DNA from: Candidatus Methanoperedentaceae archaeon
Lineage (GTDB): Archaea > Halobacteriota > Methanosarcinia > Methanosarcinales > Methanoperedenaceae
DNA length: 14,496 nucleotides
Direction: 5' to 3'
Assembly: GCA_027371625.1 (NCBI GenBank)
Contig: DAHXMQ010000017.1
Span: forward strand, 1 to 14,496
A program made the position numbers and the translations under genes. Below are positions 102 to 5,628 of the stretch, piece after piece; positions within the stretch are counted from its first letter, which is position 1, and each line of letters opens with the position of its first letter. Below the pieces are notes generated by a model. It searched no databases. It was not told where the DNA came from and saw only the letters and a program-made list of their open reading frames with translations.

Positions 102-1283
102 CTATCTTCTCAGCCGACATATAAACACAACCACCAAAGCCGCAATTGCCGAAAATGCTTCGAATCCAGGTGTTGTTGGTGTTGTGGTCATTGGTATTGC
201 CGTTGGTTTCGCGGCTGTGGCTGCCGGTGTATATGGAACAGTTTTCGTTGTTGGTGCGGGTGTACCGATCCCAAGTCCGATTGTATCTACTACGAACCCT
301 TTCTCAGAACCGCCTTTACCGTAGTGGCACCTGAAGCAAAAGCCGTTGTTTACCGTGATCTCAGAGAACTTTGCTGGCTTTGTATCTAGATCGCCGTGGC
401 AGGTGCTGCACTTGCTGTCATTCCCACCATAATCAACGCCGTGGCTGCCTTCGCCATACATCCATTTAGAAAACGATGGGTTAATCGAGGTCGAAGTGTT
501 TGGATGGGTGGGTGAAACTGGCGTATAGTCAATCATCGTCTGTTCTCGTCCTAAACGTGGTGCGCCGAGCGTGATAACCTGGAAACTTGGGTTGGTCTTC
601 AGGGACAATATGGTATAGACATCCCCATAAAACATCCCAAGTACATCCGGCGAGTAGTTGCCGTCTGGGTAACTGACTGTTGTATGGTCGTAACCTTGAC
701 TTATGGTGAAAGTCTCGATTCGATAGTCAGGATCCGAAAGGTTGCCGATGACAGATACCCTAAGCTTCTCTCCCACGAATTGGTGGATATCCTTAGTCGG
801 GTCATCAATGCGTGTAGGAATGAGATCGTTATAGAGGTTATTTATCATAATGTAGCGATTGCCAGCATATCCATTACTTCCCAGAGTAAATCGTGCTGTG
901 CCGTTAGTAATAGTTGCAGCATTAAAGGGCTTATTGAGAGACTTAACGACTTCGTAGGAGCATTCGCGTGTGTTAAAATTACATCCCCATCTCACTGATT
1001 CGTTATTAGATACATTAAGCATTTTCTCTGTCTGCTCCATGTCTTCCAGTTCGCTGTCTCTTGAGACGTTCGAGATTTTCCCACTTCTTATTATGACAAC
1101 AGCCTCAGGGTCAAAAAATAAGCCATCATATCTGGACAGTACAGCCTCGGTGATAGATGTTGTCCTGATATCCCCTTTACCATCAAGGCTGGGCTCAAGA
1201 GTGAGCGTCAATGTTCCGGCGGCAGCAAGCCCTGTACCTAATATGAAGCATATTACAAATACTACAATGATGTTGTATTTCAT
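102..1283 (-). CDS. Secreted diheme c-type cytochrome with PGF-CTERM-like anchor
   Basis: A predicted extracytoplasmic electron-transfer protein of 393 residues. Residues 1-22 form a signal peptide (hydrophobic core, then AAAG). Two CxxCH heme c motifs are visible: CSTCH at 292-296 and CFRCH at 316-320. Nearby histidines at 260 and 281 could be distal ligands. Residues 23-290 contain no heme motif and match nothing I recognise. They carry several N-x-S/T sequons, consistent with an S-layer-side glycoprotein. A Thr/Pro/Ala-rich linker (about 340-370) leads to TPGF, a hydrophobic segment and CRLRR, the layout of archaeal PGF-CTERM sorting tails processed by archaeosortase. The start ATG has GGAG at 1294-1297, 10 nt upstream. 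It lies 53 nt downstream of the small membrane protein gene on the same strand. The electron-transfer role is inferred; the partner is unknown. Confidence 0.88.
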   Translation of the reverse strand: MKYNIIVVFVICFILGTGLAAAGTLTLTLEPSLDGKGDIRTTSITEAVLSRYDGLFFDPEAVVIIRSGKISNVSRDSELEDMEQTEKMLNVSNNESVRWGCNFNTRECSYEVVKSLNKPFNAATITNGTARFTLGSNGYAGNRYIMINNLYNDLIPTRIDDPTKDIHQFVGEKLRVSVIGNLSDPDYRIETFTISQGYDHTTVSYPDGNYSPDVLGMFYGDVYTILSLKTNPSFQVITLGAPRLGREQTMIDYTPVSPTHPNTSTSINPSFSKWMYGEGSHGVDYGGNDSKCSTCHGDLDTKPAKFSEITVNNGFCFRCHYGKGGSEKGFVVDTIGLGIGTPAPTTKTVPYTPAATAAKPTAIPMTTTPTTPGFEAFSAIAALVVVFICRLRR

Positions 1284-1724: not shown

Positions 1725-2774
1725 TTATCTACCTGTCTTCAGTCTTGTGTGGCTACTGTCCACGATGTCAACCCCTAATCCCTGGAAAAGGTTTTGGGCA
1801 TTTGGATCAACATACTTGTTCCAATTGACCGTTATGGTCTGACCATTTCTCTTGATAGCCATATTGCTGAAGTCGGTTGTGCCCCAGAGGTCAGATGTGG
1901 CATCAAGATTATGTCCTTCGAGGGCTGTATACAGGTACTGCCCTGTAGTTCCTTGAAGGTTGGTGGTCAAATATGTATTGCCTCCGGTTGTTTGGTCGTA
2001 GAAGGTAATCCACCACTTTGCCCCGTCCCAACTCATTAAGCCTCTTATACGGTCACCTACATTTACGTTTATCGGGCTGCTGCGATAGTAATTATTAGAG
2101 CTATCTACTATCCATGCTGCTCCAGTTTTCGGGTTCCCGGGCCACAAACCGTCTTCGTTGTGCTCGAGAACAGGCTGTATTATCGTGTTTCGTCCACTCC
2201 AGCTACCACTCCCGGGTGCTTGAATCGCGGGGAAGAGATACGCAACATCATCGTCTATCCAGTCACTTATTGGTTCAGTTGGAACTGTCCATTCGGCGTA
2301 GAAATAGTTTATGTTATTGTCAGCGGAAGAAGTATATGTTTGTTCGATCCATCCCGAATAGTCCGGAATGCTTTGTGGCATCTCTTCATCTACTACCTTC
2401 AGAATGACCTCGCCAGATGGGTCATAGACCTCAACTTCACCTTTTGAAGCCTGTTGGACAGACGACTCTGAGGGCAACTCATACACTTTTGTTGCTTTTT
2501 GTGGGCCATAAGGGGTAGATACGTTATCAACTTTTTCCTGAGGGAACCTTTTCCAGATATTGTTAGATTGGTCGTATATCTCGGTTACTCCAAGCTTTGT
2601 GTGTACGACTGTAGCCCCCTTTGGAATATTGAACGTATTGTTCCCATTGAAACCCAATGGTTTCGATAATTTTTCATCTGCTCCTTGTGCGCTCACCACA
2701 GGCATAAATACTATGCTCAGCAGCAACATTGCCGCTAGCATCGCGCCTAATTGCATTCCTTTACTTTTCTTCAT
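1725..2774 (-). CDS. Secreted eqolisin (G1 peptidase)-like protein
   Basis: A 349-residue exported protein. Residues 1-30 form a signal peptide (KKSK, hydrophobic core, VVSAQ). Residues 31-140 would be a pro-region or N-terminal domain. From about residue 142 (W-I-E-Q-T-Y) the sequence is Trp/Tyr/Gly-rich and beta-strand-like, including YFYAEWTVPTEP at 157-168, IIQPVLEHN at 198-206 and the segment TALEGHN at 283-289 followed by D-F-S-N-M. This order resembles the concanavalin-like fold of eqolisins, whose catalytic Gln sits in an I-L-Q motif and whose catalytic Glu precedes a T-F-S-N strand; Q200 and E286 are the candidates here. The family assignment is from memory of motifs and is an inference; a non-catalytic lectin-like relative is possible. 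The ATG follows GGAGGG by 8 nt. It has the duplicated promoter-leader cassette upstream. Confidence 0.8.
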   Translation of the reverse strand: MKKSKGMQLGAMLAAMLLLSIVFMPVVSAQGADEKLSKPLGFNGNNTFNIPKGATVVHTKLGVTEIYDQSNNIWKRFPQEKVDNVSTPYGPQKATKVYELPSESSVQQASKGEVEVYDPSGEVILKVVDEEMPQSIPDYSGWIEQTYTSSADNNINYFYAEWTVPTEPISDWIDDDVAYLFPAIQAPGSGSWSGRNTIIQPVLEHNEDGLWPGNPKTGAAWIVDSSNNYYRSSPINVNVGDRIRGLMSWDGAKWWITFYDQTTGGNTYLTTNLQGTTGQYLYTALEGHNLDATSDLWGTTDFSNMAIKRNGQTITVNWNKYVDPNAQNLFQGLGVDIVDSSHTRLKTGR

Positions 2775-2823
2775 ATTTTTATCCCTCCATATATTTCTTG
2801 TTGCCCTCCGGCGCGGCGCTGGC

Positions 2824-2831
2824 TTTAAATA
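2824..2831 (+). promoter_or_regulatory. Plus-strand TATA box for putative small RNA A
   Basis: TTTAAATA, inside the conserved CTGGCTTTAAATA, lies 27 nt before the conserved ATGCCTTCGGG block. This is the usual archaeal TATA-to-start distance. The box is conserved at 4453-4460 although the flanking bases differ. Confidence 0.55.
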
Positions 2832-2850
2832 TGTTCAAAGCAATACTGCC

Positions 2851-2910
2851 ATGCCTTCGGGCACTCTGGGGTTCAGTTGCTCTCAAGAAACGACTGAACC
2901 CCACGTTTTT
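2851..2910 (+). ncRNA. Putative 60-nt antisense small RNA, copy A
   Basis: Read on the plus strand, this block forms TGCC-TTCG-GGCA, a classic UUCG tetraloop hairpin (2852-2863). It is followed by a stem GGGGTTCAG (2868-2876) with CTGAACCCC (2894-2902) that extends to 12 pairs with one G-U, then ACG and T5 (2906-2910) like a terminator. The other strand would have a CGAA loop and A-C mismatches, so the plus strand is the better RNA. A TATA box sits at 2824-2831. The RNA would be complementary to the untranslated leader of the minus-strand secreted-protein mRNA. An ATG at 2851 opens a 27-codon frame, so a leaderless small protein is the alternative. Differences from copy B fall mainly in the loop, and they change amino acids rather than being silent. 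Confidence 0.55.
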
Positions 2911-3008
2911 ATGGCTGTAAAATCTGATTATTAGATTTTGTCTCCTTAACCCGAGAATTTACAGTTCCAGTTTTTTAGATGAGAAGAGGGAGTATATATT
3001 ACAAACGG

Positions 3009-3016
3009 TTTATAAA
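3009..3016 (-). promoter_or_regulatory. TATA box of the eqolisin-like gene
   Basis: TTTATAAA within the conserved CGGTTTATAAA is the best archaeal TATA box upstream of the gene on the minus strand. It predicts a start near 2985 and an unusually long leader of about 210 nt. A second conserved AT-rich block (2993-3000) is an alternative box. Iterons lie directly upstream of the box. Confidence 0.5.
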
Positions 3017-3041
3017 ATATAACGTGATTAAAAATTACAAC

Positions 3042-3065
3042 GCCGTTAAAATTTTTAATGACGTT
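3042..3065. promoter_or_regulatory. Two 18-bp-spaced GMCGTT iterons, copy A
   Basis: GCCGTT at 3042-3047 and GACGTT at 3060-3065 lie exactly 18 bp apart, each followed by an A/T-rich RAAAWTTW spacer. They sit upstream of the minus-strand TATA box. The same unit occurs four times at 4681-4739. Regular spacing near two helical turns suggests cooperative binding of a regulator. Confidence 0.5.
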
Positions 3066-3195
3066 GAAAATTAATAAATTTGAAATGAGTGCTTTTATAT
3101 TCTATACGATTTCAGATTTCAGAATCAATATATACCAACCGATTATTTGCTCTGTGCTTTTAGAGCAACTTATGACCTATAAAGAGAAGTATTTC

Positions 3196-3558
3196 CTATG
3201 TGCATTTGCTAAATGTCTTGAGAGCAGCACCTACTAGAAGGAGAACTGCACCTGGAAAAATGATTAATCCCAAGCCAGGAAATGTAAGTATTGAGAGAGC
3301 TAGAACTAAAATGCTTCCAATCCACGCCAAGAGTATGTTTCGGTAACATCCCCAAGCCGCTATAGCTGCTCCAATAACACAATATAGGAAGAAAGGTTGT
3401 AAAGCTCCTTCCCAAATTATTCCTGTAGCGCCGGTTGCTGGGTAATAAAACTTGTAAGGTCTTCCAGCGAAAAAAAATAGGAGGGAAGGGCCCACTACTG
3501 AGATGAACCCTAGCAGACCATAGAATTTTGGATCACGCCAGATCGATTGGAATTGCAT
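3196..3558 (-). CDS. Four-helix membrane protein, unknown function
   Basis: A 120-residue, strongly hydrophobic protein with about four membrane segments, near residues 12-31, 52-68, 71-90 and 93-113. It has few charged residues. FFFAGRPYKFYYPATG joins helices 1 and 2. No family is recognised. It begins 31 nt after the stop of the six-cysteine secreted-protein gene on the same strand, so the two are probably cotranscribed. No strong Shine-Dalgarno site is seen before the ATG, which fits translation by coupling or reinitiation. It may be the functional counterpart of the two-helix protein at 1337-1600 in the parallel module, but I see no sequence similarity between them. Confidence 0.6.
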   Translation of the reverse strand: MQFQSIWRDPKFYGLLGFISVVGPSLLFFFAGRPYKFYYPATGATGIIWEGALQPFFLYCVIGAAIAAWGCYRNILLAWIGSILVLALSILTFPGLGLIIFPGAVLLLVGAALKTFSKCT

Positions 3559-3589
3559 AATTCATGATGGTTCTATCAAGCATTTGCAA

Positions 3590-4393
3590 CTACCACGCAT
3601 TGCAACTTCCTACAATCCCATTAACTATACTGCCTGTATACCCGTAAGTACAGGAGACAGAGCCTGATTTTGATCCAGAAGTTTTGGTCAAAAGCGAATG
3701 TGTCCAAGAATTCAAAAGATAATGAAAGTCTCCCTGCCCATACATATTGACCCAATCTCCATTAGAGGGATTCCAATAATAGGTACAAGCAGTGTTACTC
3801 CAACCATCCGGCAGCCACCAGCAATAGCCATCATCACCACTAATTTTCCAAGCCGAATTCCCATCCCAACCAAATGTCATTTGGCTATATCGCTCGGTTA
3901 ATTTGTCCCCTGTTCCACCCCAACCGTACATGTAAATATCAGTAGCCGCGTTTGTCTGAGGATCGGTTGATGCTGTTTTAGGCTGTAAGCTCTCATTTTT
4001 TTCCACTACAACCACATTGCAATTATTGTCCACTATAGTTCTAACGCTTTTACTTCCTTTCTCTCCTGGACCGAACTCAGTTGTTATCCTAAATGAAACT
4101 TGGCAGAGATCGTTAGGACTGTTACGCTTTCCAGTGGTGACGACATCTCCTTTTTTAATATCTTGGAATGGTAATGTTTTTTGGTATATAATTTGTTGGA
4201 CTTCACTGGCATTTATTTCGGTTGGCTTAACGCTAATCCCATTTGAATTAGAATTTAGCGGGGTATTCGGTAGATTTAGCTGCTTGTTCATTAAAATAGC
4301 GTTTTCGGCATATGCCACCGGCAACAGTGCCATGTTCATAGCAAACAACACCATCAGCACTGTGCCTAATTGTATCCCTTTATGTTTATTCAT
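3590..4393 (-). CDS. Secreted six-cysteine protein, unknown function
   Basis: A 267-residue exported protein. I start it at the ATG at 4393, preceded by GGAGGA 7 nt away, rather than five codons upstream where the ATG would overlap that site. Residues 1-29 form a signal peptide (MNKHKGIQLG, hydrophobic core, VAYA) closely resembling that of the eqolisin-like protein (MKKSKGMQLG). The mature part has six cysteines (97, 125, 191, 203, 248, 264), an even number that suggests disulfide bonds. Its second half is rich in Gly, Trp, Tyr and Ser (for example CWWLPDGW at 191-198, GDFHYLLNSWTHSLL at 221-235), suggesting an extracellular beta-rich fold. I do not recognise a family and assign no function. 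It heads a likely two-gene operon with the four-helix membrane protein. Confidence 0.72.
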   Translation of the reverse strand: MNKHKGIQLGTVLMVLFAMNMALLPVAYAENAILMNKQLNLPNTPLNSNSNGISVKPTEINASEVQQIIYQKTLPFQDIKKGDVVTTGKRNSPNDLCQVSFRITTEFGPGEKGSKSVRTIVDNNCNVVVVEKNESLQPKTASTDPQTNAATDIYMYGWGGTGDKLTERYSQMTFGWDGNSAWKISGDDGYCWWLPDGWSNTACTYYWNPSNGDWVNMYGQGDFHYLLNSWTHSLLTKTSGSKSGSVSCTYGYTGSIVNGIVGSCNAW

Positions 4394-4452
4394 TTTTTGT
4401 TCCTCCATTTATTTTTCCTCGACTCATTGCTTCCCTCAGGCTAGGCACTGGC

Positions 4453-4460
4453 TTTAAATA
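4453..4460 (+). promoter_or_regulatory. Plus-strand TATA box for putative small RNA B
   Basis: TTTAAATA in the conserved CTGGCTTTAAATA context lies 28 nt before ATGCCTTCGGG. The one-base spacing difference from copy A stays within the normal archaeal range. Confidence 0.55.
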
Positions 4461-4480
4461 AGTTTAAAGCAAATACTACC

Positions 4481-4540
4481 ATGCCTTCGGGCACTCTGGG
4501 GTTCAGTTGCTCTTGCGGAACGGCTGAACCCCACGTTTTT
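4481..4540 (+). ncRNA. Putative 60-nt antisense small RNA, copy B
   Basis: It has the same layout as copy A: UUCG tetraloop hairpin (4482-4493), stem GGGGTTCAG (4498-4506) with CTGAACCCC (4524-4532), then ACG and T5 (4536-4540). The 26-nt spacing between the arms is identical to copy A. The loop sequence differs, and one stem pair is T-G here against T-A in copy A, so pairing is kept on the plus strand but lost on the minus strand. It would be antisense to the leader of the six-cysteine protein mRNA, and nearly complementary to the other leader too. A leaderless small protein starting MPSGTLGFSC is the alternative reading. Confidence 0.55.
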
Positions 4541-4647
4541 ATGGCTGCAAAATCTAGATGTGATATGGTTGGATTTCCAAACCTTTCACCCTCGAACTTT
4601 ACAGACCCAATTTTTAGAATAGAACAAGCAGTATATATTACTATCGG

Positions 4648-4655
4648 TTTATAAA
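4648..4655 (-). promoter_or_regulatory. TATA box of the six-cysteine protein gene
   Basis: TTTATAAA in the conserved CGGTTTATAAA context on the minus strand predicts transcription from near 4622 and a leader of about 230 nt. Confidence 0.5.
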
Positions 4656-4680
4656 TTATAATGTATTTAAAAAATTCAAT

Positions 4681-4739
4681 GCCGTTAAAAATTACAATGA
4701 CGTTGAAATTTTTAATGCCGTTGAAAATTTCAAGACGTT
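4681..4739. promoter_or_regulatory. Four 17-18-bp iterons, copy B
   Basis: GMCGTT cores start at 4681 (GCCGTT), 4699 (GACGTT), 4717 (GCCGTT) and 4734 (GACGTT), with periods of 18, 18 and 17 bp and A/T-rich spacers of the form RAAAWTTWMAAT. They lie between the minus-strand promoter of the six-cysteine gene and the start of the plus-strand UbiA gene, so one regulator could act on both. Confidence 0.55.
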
Positions 4740-4741
4740 TG

Positions 4742-4749
4742 TAATATTA
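4742..4749 (+). promoter_or_regulatory. Possible TATA box for the UbiA gene
   Basis: TAATATTA is centred about 28 nt before the GTG at 4774, which would make the UbiA mRNA nearly leaderless. It directly abuts the last iteron. Confidence 0.35.
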
Positions 4750-4773
4750 AGAGGCTGCATAATTACTTAAAGC

Positions 4774-5628
4774 GTGGATATCGTAAACTCACCTACTTTA
4801 CGGCTTCTAAATTCATCAACTCTTGTGGCTATTTCAGGTGCTCTTAGGCTGCACATAGCCTTTCTTTTGGCGGGTATAGAGCCAAAGATAATCGTTTATC
4901 TGGCATTTGGACTGATTATTTATGCAACATATACTCTTGACCGTTCCCTTGACTGCAAAGAAGATGCAATAAACAAGAGCGAATTAACTGAATCAAATAA
5001 GCATATAGCTGTTATTGCCTGTATCCTTTCATTTCTTGCCGGAGCTTTGATACTTGCCGGGGAGAACATATATTTTGCATCATTCTTTCCTTTTATTATA
5101 GGCTACCTTTATTCAAAAGGCATCAAAACAGGTAAACTTACGCTAAAGCTGAAAGGCAGCATGGGAGGCAAAAATATTGTAATCGGATTGACATGGGGAG
5201 GAACTATAGCGAGTATTGTTAGTAAATGGACTGGGAATATCTTTGCTGTCATCTCAATATTTTTATTTTATGCAACCAAATTATTTATGAATTCGGTACT
5301 GTATGATTTTAAGGACATAAAAGGAGATGCAGCAGCCGGAATAAAAACGTTGCCGGTGTGTTTTGGTAAAGACAGAATTAGAAAAATACTTCTGATGTTC
5401 TGTTCATCGCTTCACGCAAGTATGATTATTGCATTTTTAATGGGTTTTATAAGGCGTGAATTGGTAATTCTGTCCTATAGTTTCGTCATCGGCACCTGCG
5501 CATCTTTTTGTTTGACAGGTTTTGAGGCACAAGAGTTGGGAGTAAGAAAATATGCAAGAGAAATTTTGATAGACGGCGAATCCACAATTGCTCTTGTCCT
5601 TAGATCAATTATAAATTCTCTATTTTAA
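4774..5628 (+). CDS. UbiA-family prenyltransferase
   Basis: A 284-residue integral membrane protein with about seven to nine hydrophobic segments. UbiA enzymes transfer a prenyl chain to an aromatic or polar acceptor using two Asp-rich motifs that bind Mg-diphosphate. Motif 1 is YTLDRSLDCKED (53-64; D56, D60), a variant of the usual NDxxDxxxD. Motif 2 is YDFKDIKGDAAAGIKTLPV (177-195; D178, D181, D185), which matches the family well. The start is GTG with no clear Shine-Dalgarno site and a TATA-like box just upstream. The tail overlaps the convergent FilR1-like gene by 20 bp. The acceptor cannot be told from sequence: ether-lipid, quinone or phenazine-type routes are all possible. UbiB-like and lipid radical SAM genes nearby favour isoprenoid lipid or respiratory cofactor metabolism. 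Confidence 0.82.
   Translation: MDIVNSPTLRLLNSSTLVAISGALRLHIAFLLAGIEPKIIVYLAFGLIIYATYTLDRSLDCKEDAINKSELTESNKHIAVIACILSFLAGALILAGENIYFASFFPFIIGYLYSKGIKTGKLTLKLKGSMGGKNIVIGLTWGGTIASIVSKWTGNIFAVISIFLFYATKLFMNSVLYDFKDIKGDAAAGIKTLPVCFGKDRIRKILLMFCSSLHASMIIAFLMGFIRRELVILSYSFVIGTCASFCLTGFEAQELGVRKYAREILIDGESTIALVLRSIINSLF

Follow-up and report, generated by a model that had tools for sequence, protein, structure and literature searches.

A family of folded mRNA leaders ahead of exported-protein genes in methane-cycling archaea, with a probable translational switch in one of its types

The locus and its two leader elements

The analysed stretch of 14,496 nucleotides (the window; contig DAHXMQ010000017.1 of a Candidatus Methanoperedentaceae archaeon) carries on its minus strand two genes whose products possess signal-peptide-like N-termini, a 349-aa protein (1725-2774) and a 267-aa protein (3590-4393); their Shine-Dalgarno sequences at 2783-2788 (GGAGGG) and 4402-4406, likewise on the minus strand, are predicted to be unpaired with values of 0.98 and 0.86, respectively. 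Neither protein gave a Pfam match at E up to 0.01; in the PDB, the 349-aa protein matched amoebiasin and a design derived from it, both with E about 0.01, and no close relatives of it were found in the viral contigs searched. By eye, a possible promoter TATA for the sense mRNA lies at 2993-3000 (minus strand, within repeat D1) and a similar one for copy B at about 4632-4639; the sense transcripts would, again by eye, begin near 2970 and 4600. AT-rich repeats with an 18-nt period (family D3; 3034-3076 and 4655-4733) directly precede these candidate promoters of the two genes and are possible arrays of transcription-factor sites. The window also encodes a 393-aa protein (102-1283, minus strand), whose matches to PGF-CTERM and cytochrome c7 are weak and stay below the Pfam cut-offs, and a prenyltransferase of the UbiA family (4774-5628, plus strand).

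Ahead of the two genes lie two copies of one element on the minus strand, copy A (2796-2904) and copy B (4425-4534), which scored 99.5 and 112.7 bits with the covariance model R1, each copy being among the sequences from which that model was built. Copy A is in sense to the 349-aa gene; copy B, 1.63 kb away and 92% identical over 84 nt, is the second copy of which the earlier note had spoken. Both copies conform to the layout of the leader family, i.e. P1, core, P2 and P3 in sense before an ORF with a signal peptide. P1 is a long hairpin, in copy A an inverted repeat at 2867-2903 (arms 2867-2876 and 2894-2903) that is apparent from sequence, folding and covariation. The conserved core GCCCGAAGGC (minus strand, 2853-2862 in copy A and 4483-4492 in copy B) forms the 5' arm of P2 and reads GCCUUCGGGC on the plus strand; P3 is a second inverted repeat (2822-2841 and 4451-4470, respectively); and the 3' arm of P2 is positioned at 2803-2812 (GCCGGAGGGC in sense) in copy A and at 4433-4441 (GCCUGAGGG) in copy B, both on the minus strand, covariation of this arm being seen in type 2 of the family only.

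The same letters had been read in the earlier note as a plus-strand antisense small RNA gene. Its landmarks are present: the plus-strand GCC-UUCG-GGC at 2853-2862, the stem at 2867-2903, the T5 run directly past the stem (2906-2910, plus strand), which had been taken as the terminator of the plus RNA, and the TATA-like box TTTAAATA at 2824-2831. The box, however, is at the same time part of the plus-strand arm of P3; the T run, by eye, frequently forms one arm of a separate small inverted repeat in Methanoperedens; and the UUCG loop is not conserved across the family, the unchanged complement of UUCG and its flank being present in 65 of 137 rows (71 with flank changes allowed), UCCG in 32 and other loops in the remainder. 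That G-U pairing is retained on the plus strand only is true, by eye, for the inner pairs of P1, but P3 of copy A retains G-U on the minus strand. Compared with shuffled sequences, the 60-nt plus-strand pieces are far more stable (z of -5.28 and -4.57), and the minus strand at the same place (133-134 nt) is about equally unusual (z of -5.43 and -3.87); in consequence, stability is no guide to the strand.

Extent of the family and the genes downstream

Folded mRNA leaders of the kind seen in the two window elements form a large family, located before exported-protein genes in methane-cycling archaea. A search at the DNA level detected the element in 34 of the 185 Methanosarcinales genomes; after removal of 10 of the 74 BLAST places (in eight duplicate loci), an ORF with a signal-peptide-like start followed closely behind the element and on the same strand in most of the remaining 64. 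For the alignment, 11 truncated, duplicate or doubtful places were removed and 51 of the other 53 were kept (two had no recognised core); alignment A1 consists of 48 of those 51, the starts of six being trimmed by hand. A covariance-model search of the kind suggested in the earlier note was performed with model R1 (built from 48 sense sequences, both window copies among these) and detected the element, at E up to 0.01, in 102 of the 185 genomes, the family lying, contrary to the strand proposed, on the minus (mRNA) strand. Twenty candidates per genome were scored, so that counts per genome are lower bounds; the Methanosarcina-group genomes G156 and G157 contain at least 20 elements each. The window's own genome has three sense matches above 40 bits, of which two are those of the window and the third is on C171, and one weak sense match of 21.8 bits (C376), whereas two further listed matches are the same inverted repeats on the opposite strand. 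In a sample of the phylum, 86 of 392 genomes matched at E up to 0.001 (nine candidates of each being scored), 38 of them outside the order and with weaker scores (best 55 bits). Ten matches in nine loci outside the order were inspected, and the next ORF was exported-looking by eye in nine cases, the exception being L231, where the ORF start chosen was not; P3 is kept in these distant relatives with other letters, by which the TATA box is spoiled (by eye).

Within the fetched loci, which are mostly those topping the match lists and not a random draw, 156 model matches exceeded 40 bits (139 + 17). An ORF followed in 148, with its start at a distance of up to 40 nt in 127; the 29 others (8 without ORF, 21 with a farther ORF) include several that look like mis-called starts or broken genes. 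A strict, home-made and admittedly crude signal-peptide test was passed by 122 of the 127 element genes. As background, 244 ORFs were taken from 20 arbitrarily chosen stretches of the order, each of 20 kb (400 kb in total); 10 of them passed the strict test, and looser tests were passed by 58 (hydrophobic) and 35 (crude). A background taken from the loci themselves (hydrophobic N-termini in 79 of 132, versus 124 of 127 element genes) was uninformative, probably because the neighbours are exported too, and was replaced. Leaders were seen clustered at neighbouring genes in L039 (four), L152 (five) and L155 (three). When 20 downstream proteins longer than 180 aa were compared with Pfam, eight matched peptidase families (four C39-like, three M12-like, one S8), one matched DUF7689 and one DUF5815 (below cut-off), and ten had no match.

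Part of the signal-peptide association may stem from the copying of whole cassettes of promoter, leader and signal peptide. By eye, many Methanoperedens members share a near-identical signal peptide (MK.SKGMQLGA.LAAMLL) joined to different mature parts, and at L034 2757-2867, L040 619-730, L123 2334-2453 and L145 236-352 the leader is followed by a broken-looking signal-peptide start (by eye) and then by another ORF; the leader cassettes may be shuffled. These observations would also suit an element that is simply the upstream part of a cassette duplicating with secreted-protein genes and that has no regulatory role. We regard this explanation as quite improbable, given the compensatory changes in P1, P2 and P4 described below and the more diverse signal peptides of the type-2 members.

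Covariation, strand and the relation to sRNA162

By sequence comparison, the family, its location in sense and its covariation are established. In alignment A1, 92.5% of the cells pair, ten pairs are changed on both sides (reached by 1 of 500 shuffles) and 33 cells are changed on both sides (0 of 500), P1 being among the helices with such compensatory changes; further pair types were not in excess over the shuffles (22 versus 20.3; 101 of 500). Slid controls favour the A1 structure, since it was derived from the same sequences. The tests of P2 and P4 use pairings that are not, or not fully, contained in the model. In type 2, the variable letter of the core and its partner in P2 covary (80 of 98 standard pairs versus 68.5 expected; 4 of 20000 shuffles). 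P4 denotes the alternative pairing of the P2 3' arm with the gene's own Shine-Dalgarno sequence, and P2 and P4 are mutually exclusive because both use the same GCCUC. Pairing to the Shine-Dalgarno was analysed in 113 distinct members of the 156 (90 type 2, 23 type 1; L012 and L047 were counted as type 2 yet look type-1-like). For the 90 type-2 members, ten letters at the P2 3' arm paired with their own Shine-Dalgarno at a mean of -9.38 kcal/mol compared to -7.75 kcal/mol crosswise, a difference reached in 0 of 5000 permutations when relatedness is ignored, and again in 0 of 5000 when the permutations were confined to genera, the small ones being merged by tens of handle numbers (relatedness within genera ignored). 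Methanosarcina alone (n = 36) gave 0 of 5000, and the effect was weaker elsewhere (g23, 19 of 5000, n = 11; Methanoperedens type 2, 88 of 5000, n = 13). Examples of arm and Shine-Dalgarno are GCCUCU/AGAGGU, GCCUCG/CGAGGU, CUCCUAG/CUAGGAG and GCCUUUUG/CAAAAGGU. In type 1, own pairing (-3.33) was no better than crosswise pairing (-3.28); copy B reaches -3.3 kcal/mol with three pairs, its arm not being complementary to its own Shine-Dalgarno, and copy A, whose arm reads GCCG, lies outside the test set.

In type-1 relatives such as L010 (1524-1637) and L014 (1058-1166), the P2 arm CUGAUGAGGG faces CCCGAAGGC, from which a kink-turn-like junction would result. By eye, P2 can be read as a kink-turn (GCCUGAUGAGGG variants) in some of the type-1 relatives; this reading was rejected for the window copies, which lack the 3-nt bulge.

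The earlier note knew of no described RNA family with this layout, which is incorrect: in Methanosarcina mazei, sRNA162, an RNA of 191 nt that also yields stable 5' fragments of 55-65 nt, overlaps the 184-nt 5'UTR of MM2442 in antisense for 65 nt (Jager et al. 2012, PMC3510493). Binding of sRNA162 to this leader was seen in gel shifts, and its overexpression slightly lowered the MM2442 transcript, the regulatory outcome being left open by the authors; in the portion of the article available, homologues are reported only from M. acetivorans and M. barkeri, the MM2442 leader is treated as a target and not as a family, and no ribosome binding site was seen ahead of the annotated start (PMC3510493). 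If the leader start in L027 is set by the 65-nt overlap, a length of 184 nt reaches the ATG at 1668 within one base; an in-frame UUG at 1626 has a Shine-Dalgarno of its own and is preceded by AAGAGGUGA, which is complementary to the upstream GCCUCUU. Judged from these letters, the MM2442-like gene appears likelier to start at this UUG than at the ATG, which lies 42 nt further downstream and is the position that the 184-nt distance would give.

The Rfam model of sRNA162 (RF02792) hits two loci of the Methanosarcina group on the strand opposite the element (143.5 and 185.9 bits), and in those two relatives the model starts opposite the conserved core. It found matches in 26 of the 185 genomes; the 16 in which the cut-off was exceeded all belong to group g26. 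Among 14 controls it was positive in M. acetivorans; sub-cut-off matches opposite elements occurred in G079 and G169 and a weak one in another Methanoperedens genome (G059:C183, 33.9 bits), whereas weak matches in L014, L019 and L031 (27.7-33.7 bits) were not accepted as members. The window gave no RF02792 match at the gathering threshold (78 bits), genome G000 had no match to the model, and none of the six Rfam matches within window positions 2600-4900 at E up to 10 was to sRNA162.

The strand evidence is mixed. In 137 distinct rows, G-U cells are more frequent on the sense strand in P3 (130 versus 17) and P2 (16 versus 5), and on the antisense strand in P1 (33 sense versus 81 antisense). After clustering, P1 yielded 23 sense versus 61 antisense (96 clusters, below 85% identity), 17 versus 32 (50 clusters, below 75%) and 13 versus 18 (31 clusters, below 70%), and P3 85 versus 14, 43 versus 10 and 21 versus 7 at the same three levels. 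By genus, the P1 values are 18 versus 24 in Methanoperedens, 3 versus 25 in Methanosarcina and 12 versus 32 elsewhere. RNAalifold applied to A1 likewise preferred the antisense strand (-20.96 versus -7.78); this preference and the antisense G-U excess of P1 are not explained by a purely sense element.

As an alternative, copies A and B might be plus-strand antisense RNA genes of about 60 nt, with predicted 5' ends near 2851 and 4481, acting in cis on the leader and homologous to the 5' domain of sRNA162. Besides the P1 excess and the precedent of sRNA162 and sRNA171, this possibility is favoured by the TATA-like box centred about 24 nt before the predicted start, by the T5 past the stem, by the finding that 37 of 53 Methanoperedens rows have an A5/T5 run next to P1, where letter shuffles predict 4.2, and by the weak RF02792 match in G059. 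We nevertheless consider it doubtful. An antisense RNA of this kind exists in Methanosarcina, but the element itself stands in sense before signal-peptide genes and covaries with their Shine-Dalgarno sequences; P1 asymmetry is small in Methanoperedens; RF02792 misses the window and G000; and in relatives outside the order the P3 letters, by eye, do not form a TATA box any more. The T run, often an arm of its own repeat, occurs in 16 of 103 rows outside Methanoperedens (5.0 expected). An A-rich stretch upstream of the TATA box is typical of an archaeal BRE; the mean A count in the 7 nt preceding the antisense box is 4.13 in Methanosarcina and 3.58 elsewhere, but 1.02 in Methanoperedens, the genus of the window, where the box is preceded by GC-rich letters. 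Overall, the case for an antisense RNA is good in Methanosarcina and weak in the window.

Both strands might instead be functional, the leader switch containing a built-in antisense RNA that starts opposite the core (an anti-anti-Shine-Dalgarno), conserved in Methanosarcina and its relatives and decayed in type-1 Methanoperedens. Such an arrangement, which is compatible with the sense-strand leader proposed here, is in our estimation a serious prospect, if one with less than an even chance. It agrees with the opposite preferences of P1 and of P2 and P3, the strong P1 asymmetry in Methanosarcina, the start of the sRNA162 model opposite the core, the sub-cut-off matches in G079 and G169, the predicted masking of the Shine-Dalgarno upon core blocking (see below) and the slightly lowered MM2442 transcript (PMC3510493). 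Against it stand that antisense transcripts are known for sRNA162 and sRNA171 only, that matches outside the order are, by eye, without the antisense TATA box, and that the P1 asymmetry shrinks in the 31 clusters below 70% identity.

A putative Shine-Dalgarno switch and comparison with known systems

We consider it likely that the place is the 5' leader of exported-protein mRNAs that acts in type 2 as a translational switch, the type-1 copies of the window being probably permanently open or otherwise read; the earlier observation was real, and its main strand was probably misread. According to this proposal, the minus strand would fold into P1, the core GCCCGAAGGC(A), P3 and then P2, formed by the core and a downstream GCCU. 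In type 2, the GCCUC may pair instead with the gene's own Shine-Dalgarno: bound to the core, it would leave the ribosome site open, and released from the core it would close the site, so that anything occupying the core would shut the leader. In Methanosarcina, sRNA162 with its 5' end opposite the core would be well placed for such an occupation. The type-1 copies of the window keep P1, core and P3 without the Shine-Dalgarno-masking half; they may represent a permanently open derivative or possess another readout, e.g. through RNA stability or a protein bound to P2.

Folding predictions support the switch in type 2: with P1 and the core blocked, the predicted accessibility of the Shine-Dalgarno in 95 type-2 leaders fell from 0.60 to 0.07 (93 of 95 fell), and with P1 alone blocked it was 0.64. 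In 22 type-1 leaders the corresponding change was from 0.90 to 0.81 (copy A counts as type 1 in this blocking test and was placed in type 2 by a regular expression in the prediction of Shine-Dalgarno unpairedness); the window's type-1 copies are thus predicted to be open and to be without a switch in its type-2 form. That switching takes place, and what triggers it, is our inference, as is any effect on the two window genes. The core might also be bound, together with P1 and P3, by a small molecule, in which case the leader would be an orphan metabolite riboswitch. This idea, again compatible with the switch proposed here, finds an argument in the highly conserved core between helices combined with an alternative Shine-Dalgarno pairing, as in translational riboswitches, but the genes share export and no evident pathway (see the Pfam matches above), and we hold it to be rather unlikely.

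With Rfam 15, no entry for the leader itself was found in the window or in the 11 relatives searched; its place was represented in these searches only by the antisense sRNA162 of Methanosarcina. In the literature covered (mostly freely accessible articles in their main texts, including parts of PMC2864571 and PMC5378194), no description of the leader family was found; in Methanolobus, stem-loops masking ribosome sites in longer 5'UTRs have been described (PMC5378194). Apparently, the family has so far gone unrecorded. It is conceivable, although we think it distinctly unlikely in its full extent, that in methanogenic and methanotrophic archaea the leaders act as an RNA switch for the whole secretome, with up to dozens of leaders per genome whose shared core governs access to the Shine-Dalgarno, and with sRNA162-type antisense RNAs able to pair with that core and closing leaders in cis, perhaps also in trans, as a single regulon. 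To our knowledge, few cis-regulatory RNA families are known in archaea; if the proposal is true, a widespread one would be added, protein export would be linked to translation, and the action of sRNA162 on MM2442 would acquire a concrete outcome, namely masking of the Shine-Dalgarno by the freed GCCUC.

Among known systems, translational riboswitches are a class with anti-Shine-Dalgarno/anti-anti-Shine-Dalgarno alternatives and a conserved core between helices. The type-2 leaders resemble them in that a conserved core competes with the Shine-Dalgarno for one strand, and differ in that no candidate ligand is named; the window copies, moreover, are without the Shine-Dalgarno-masking arm. Leader attenuators controlled by antisense RNAs are a further known class, with which the element shares complementary hairpins on both strands; that antisense occupancy alters the leader fold, as in these attenuators, is here a prediction from folding. 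The closest likeness is to sRNA162 and sRNA171 and the MM2442 leader, in which core and P1 are on the same sides as in the window elements and which likewise lies ahead of a gene with a signal-peptide-like N-terminus. By sequence comparison, the window shares with the 5' domain of sRNA162 the GCCUUCGGGCA and a GG(G)UUCAG hairpin opposite the leader; the 3' half of sRNA162 (linker and stem-loop 3) had no model match in the window, which in contrast to sRNA162 with its linker and third stem displays a counterpart of the 5' domain alone.
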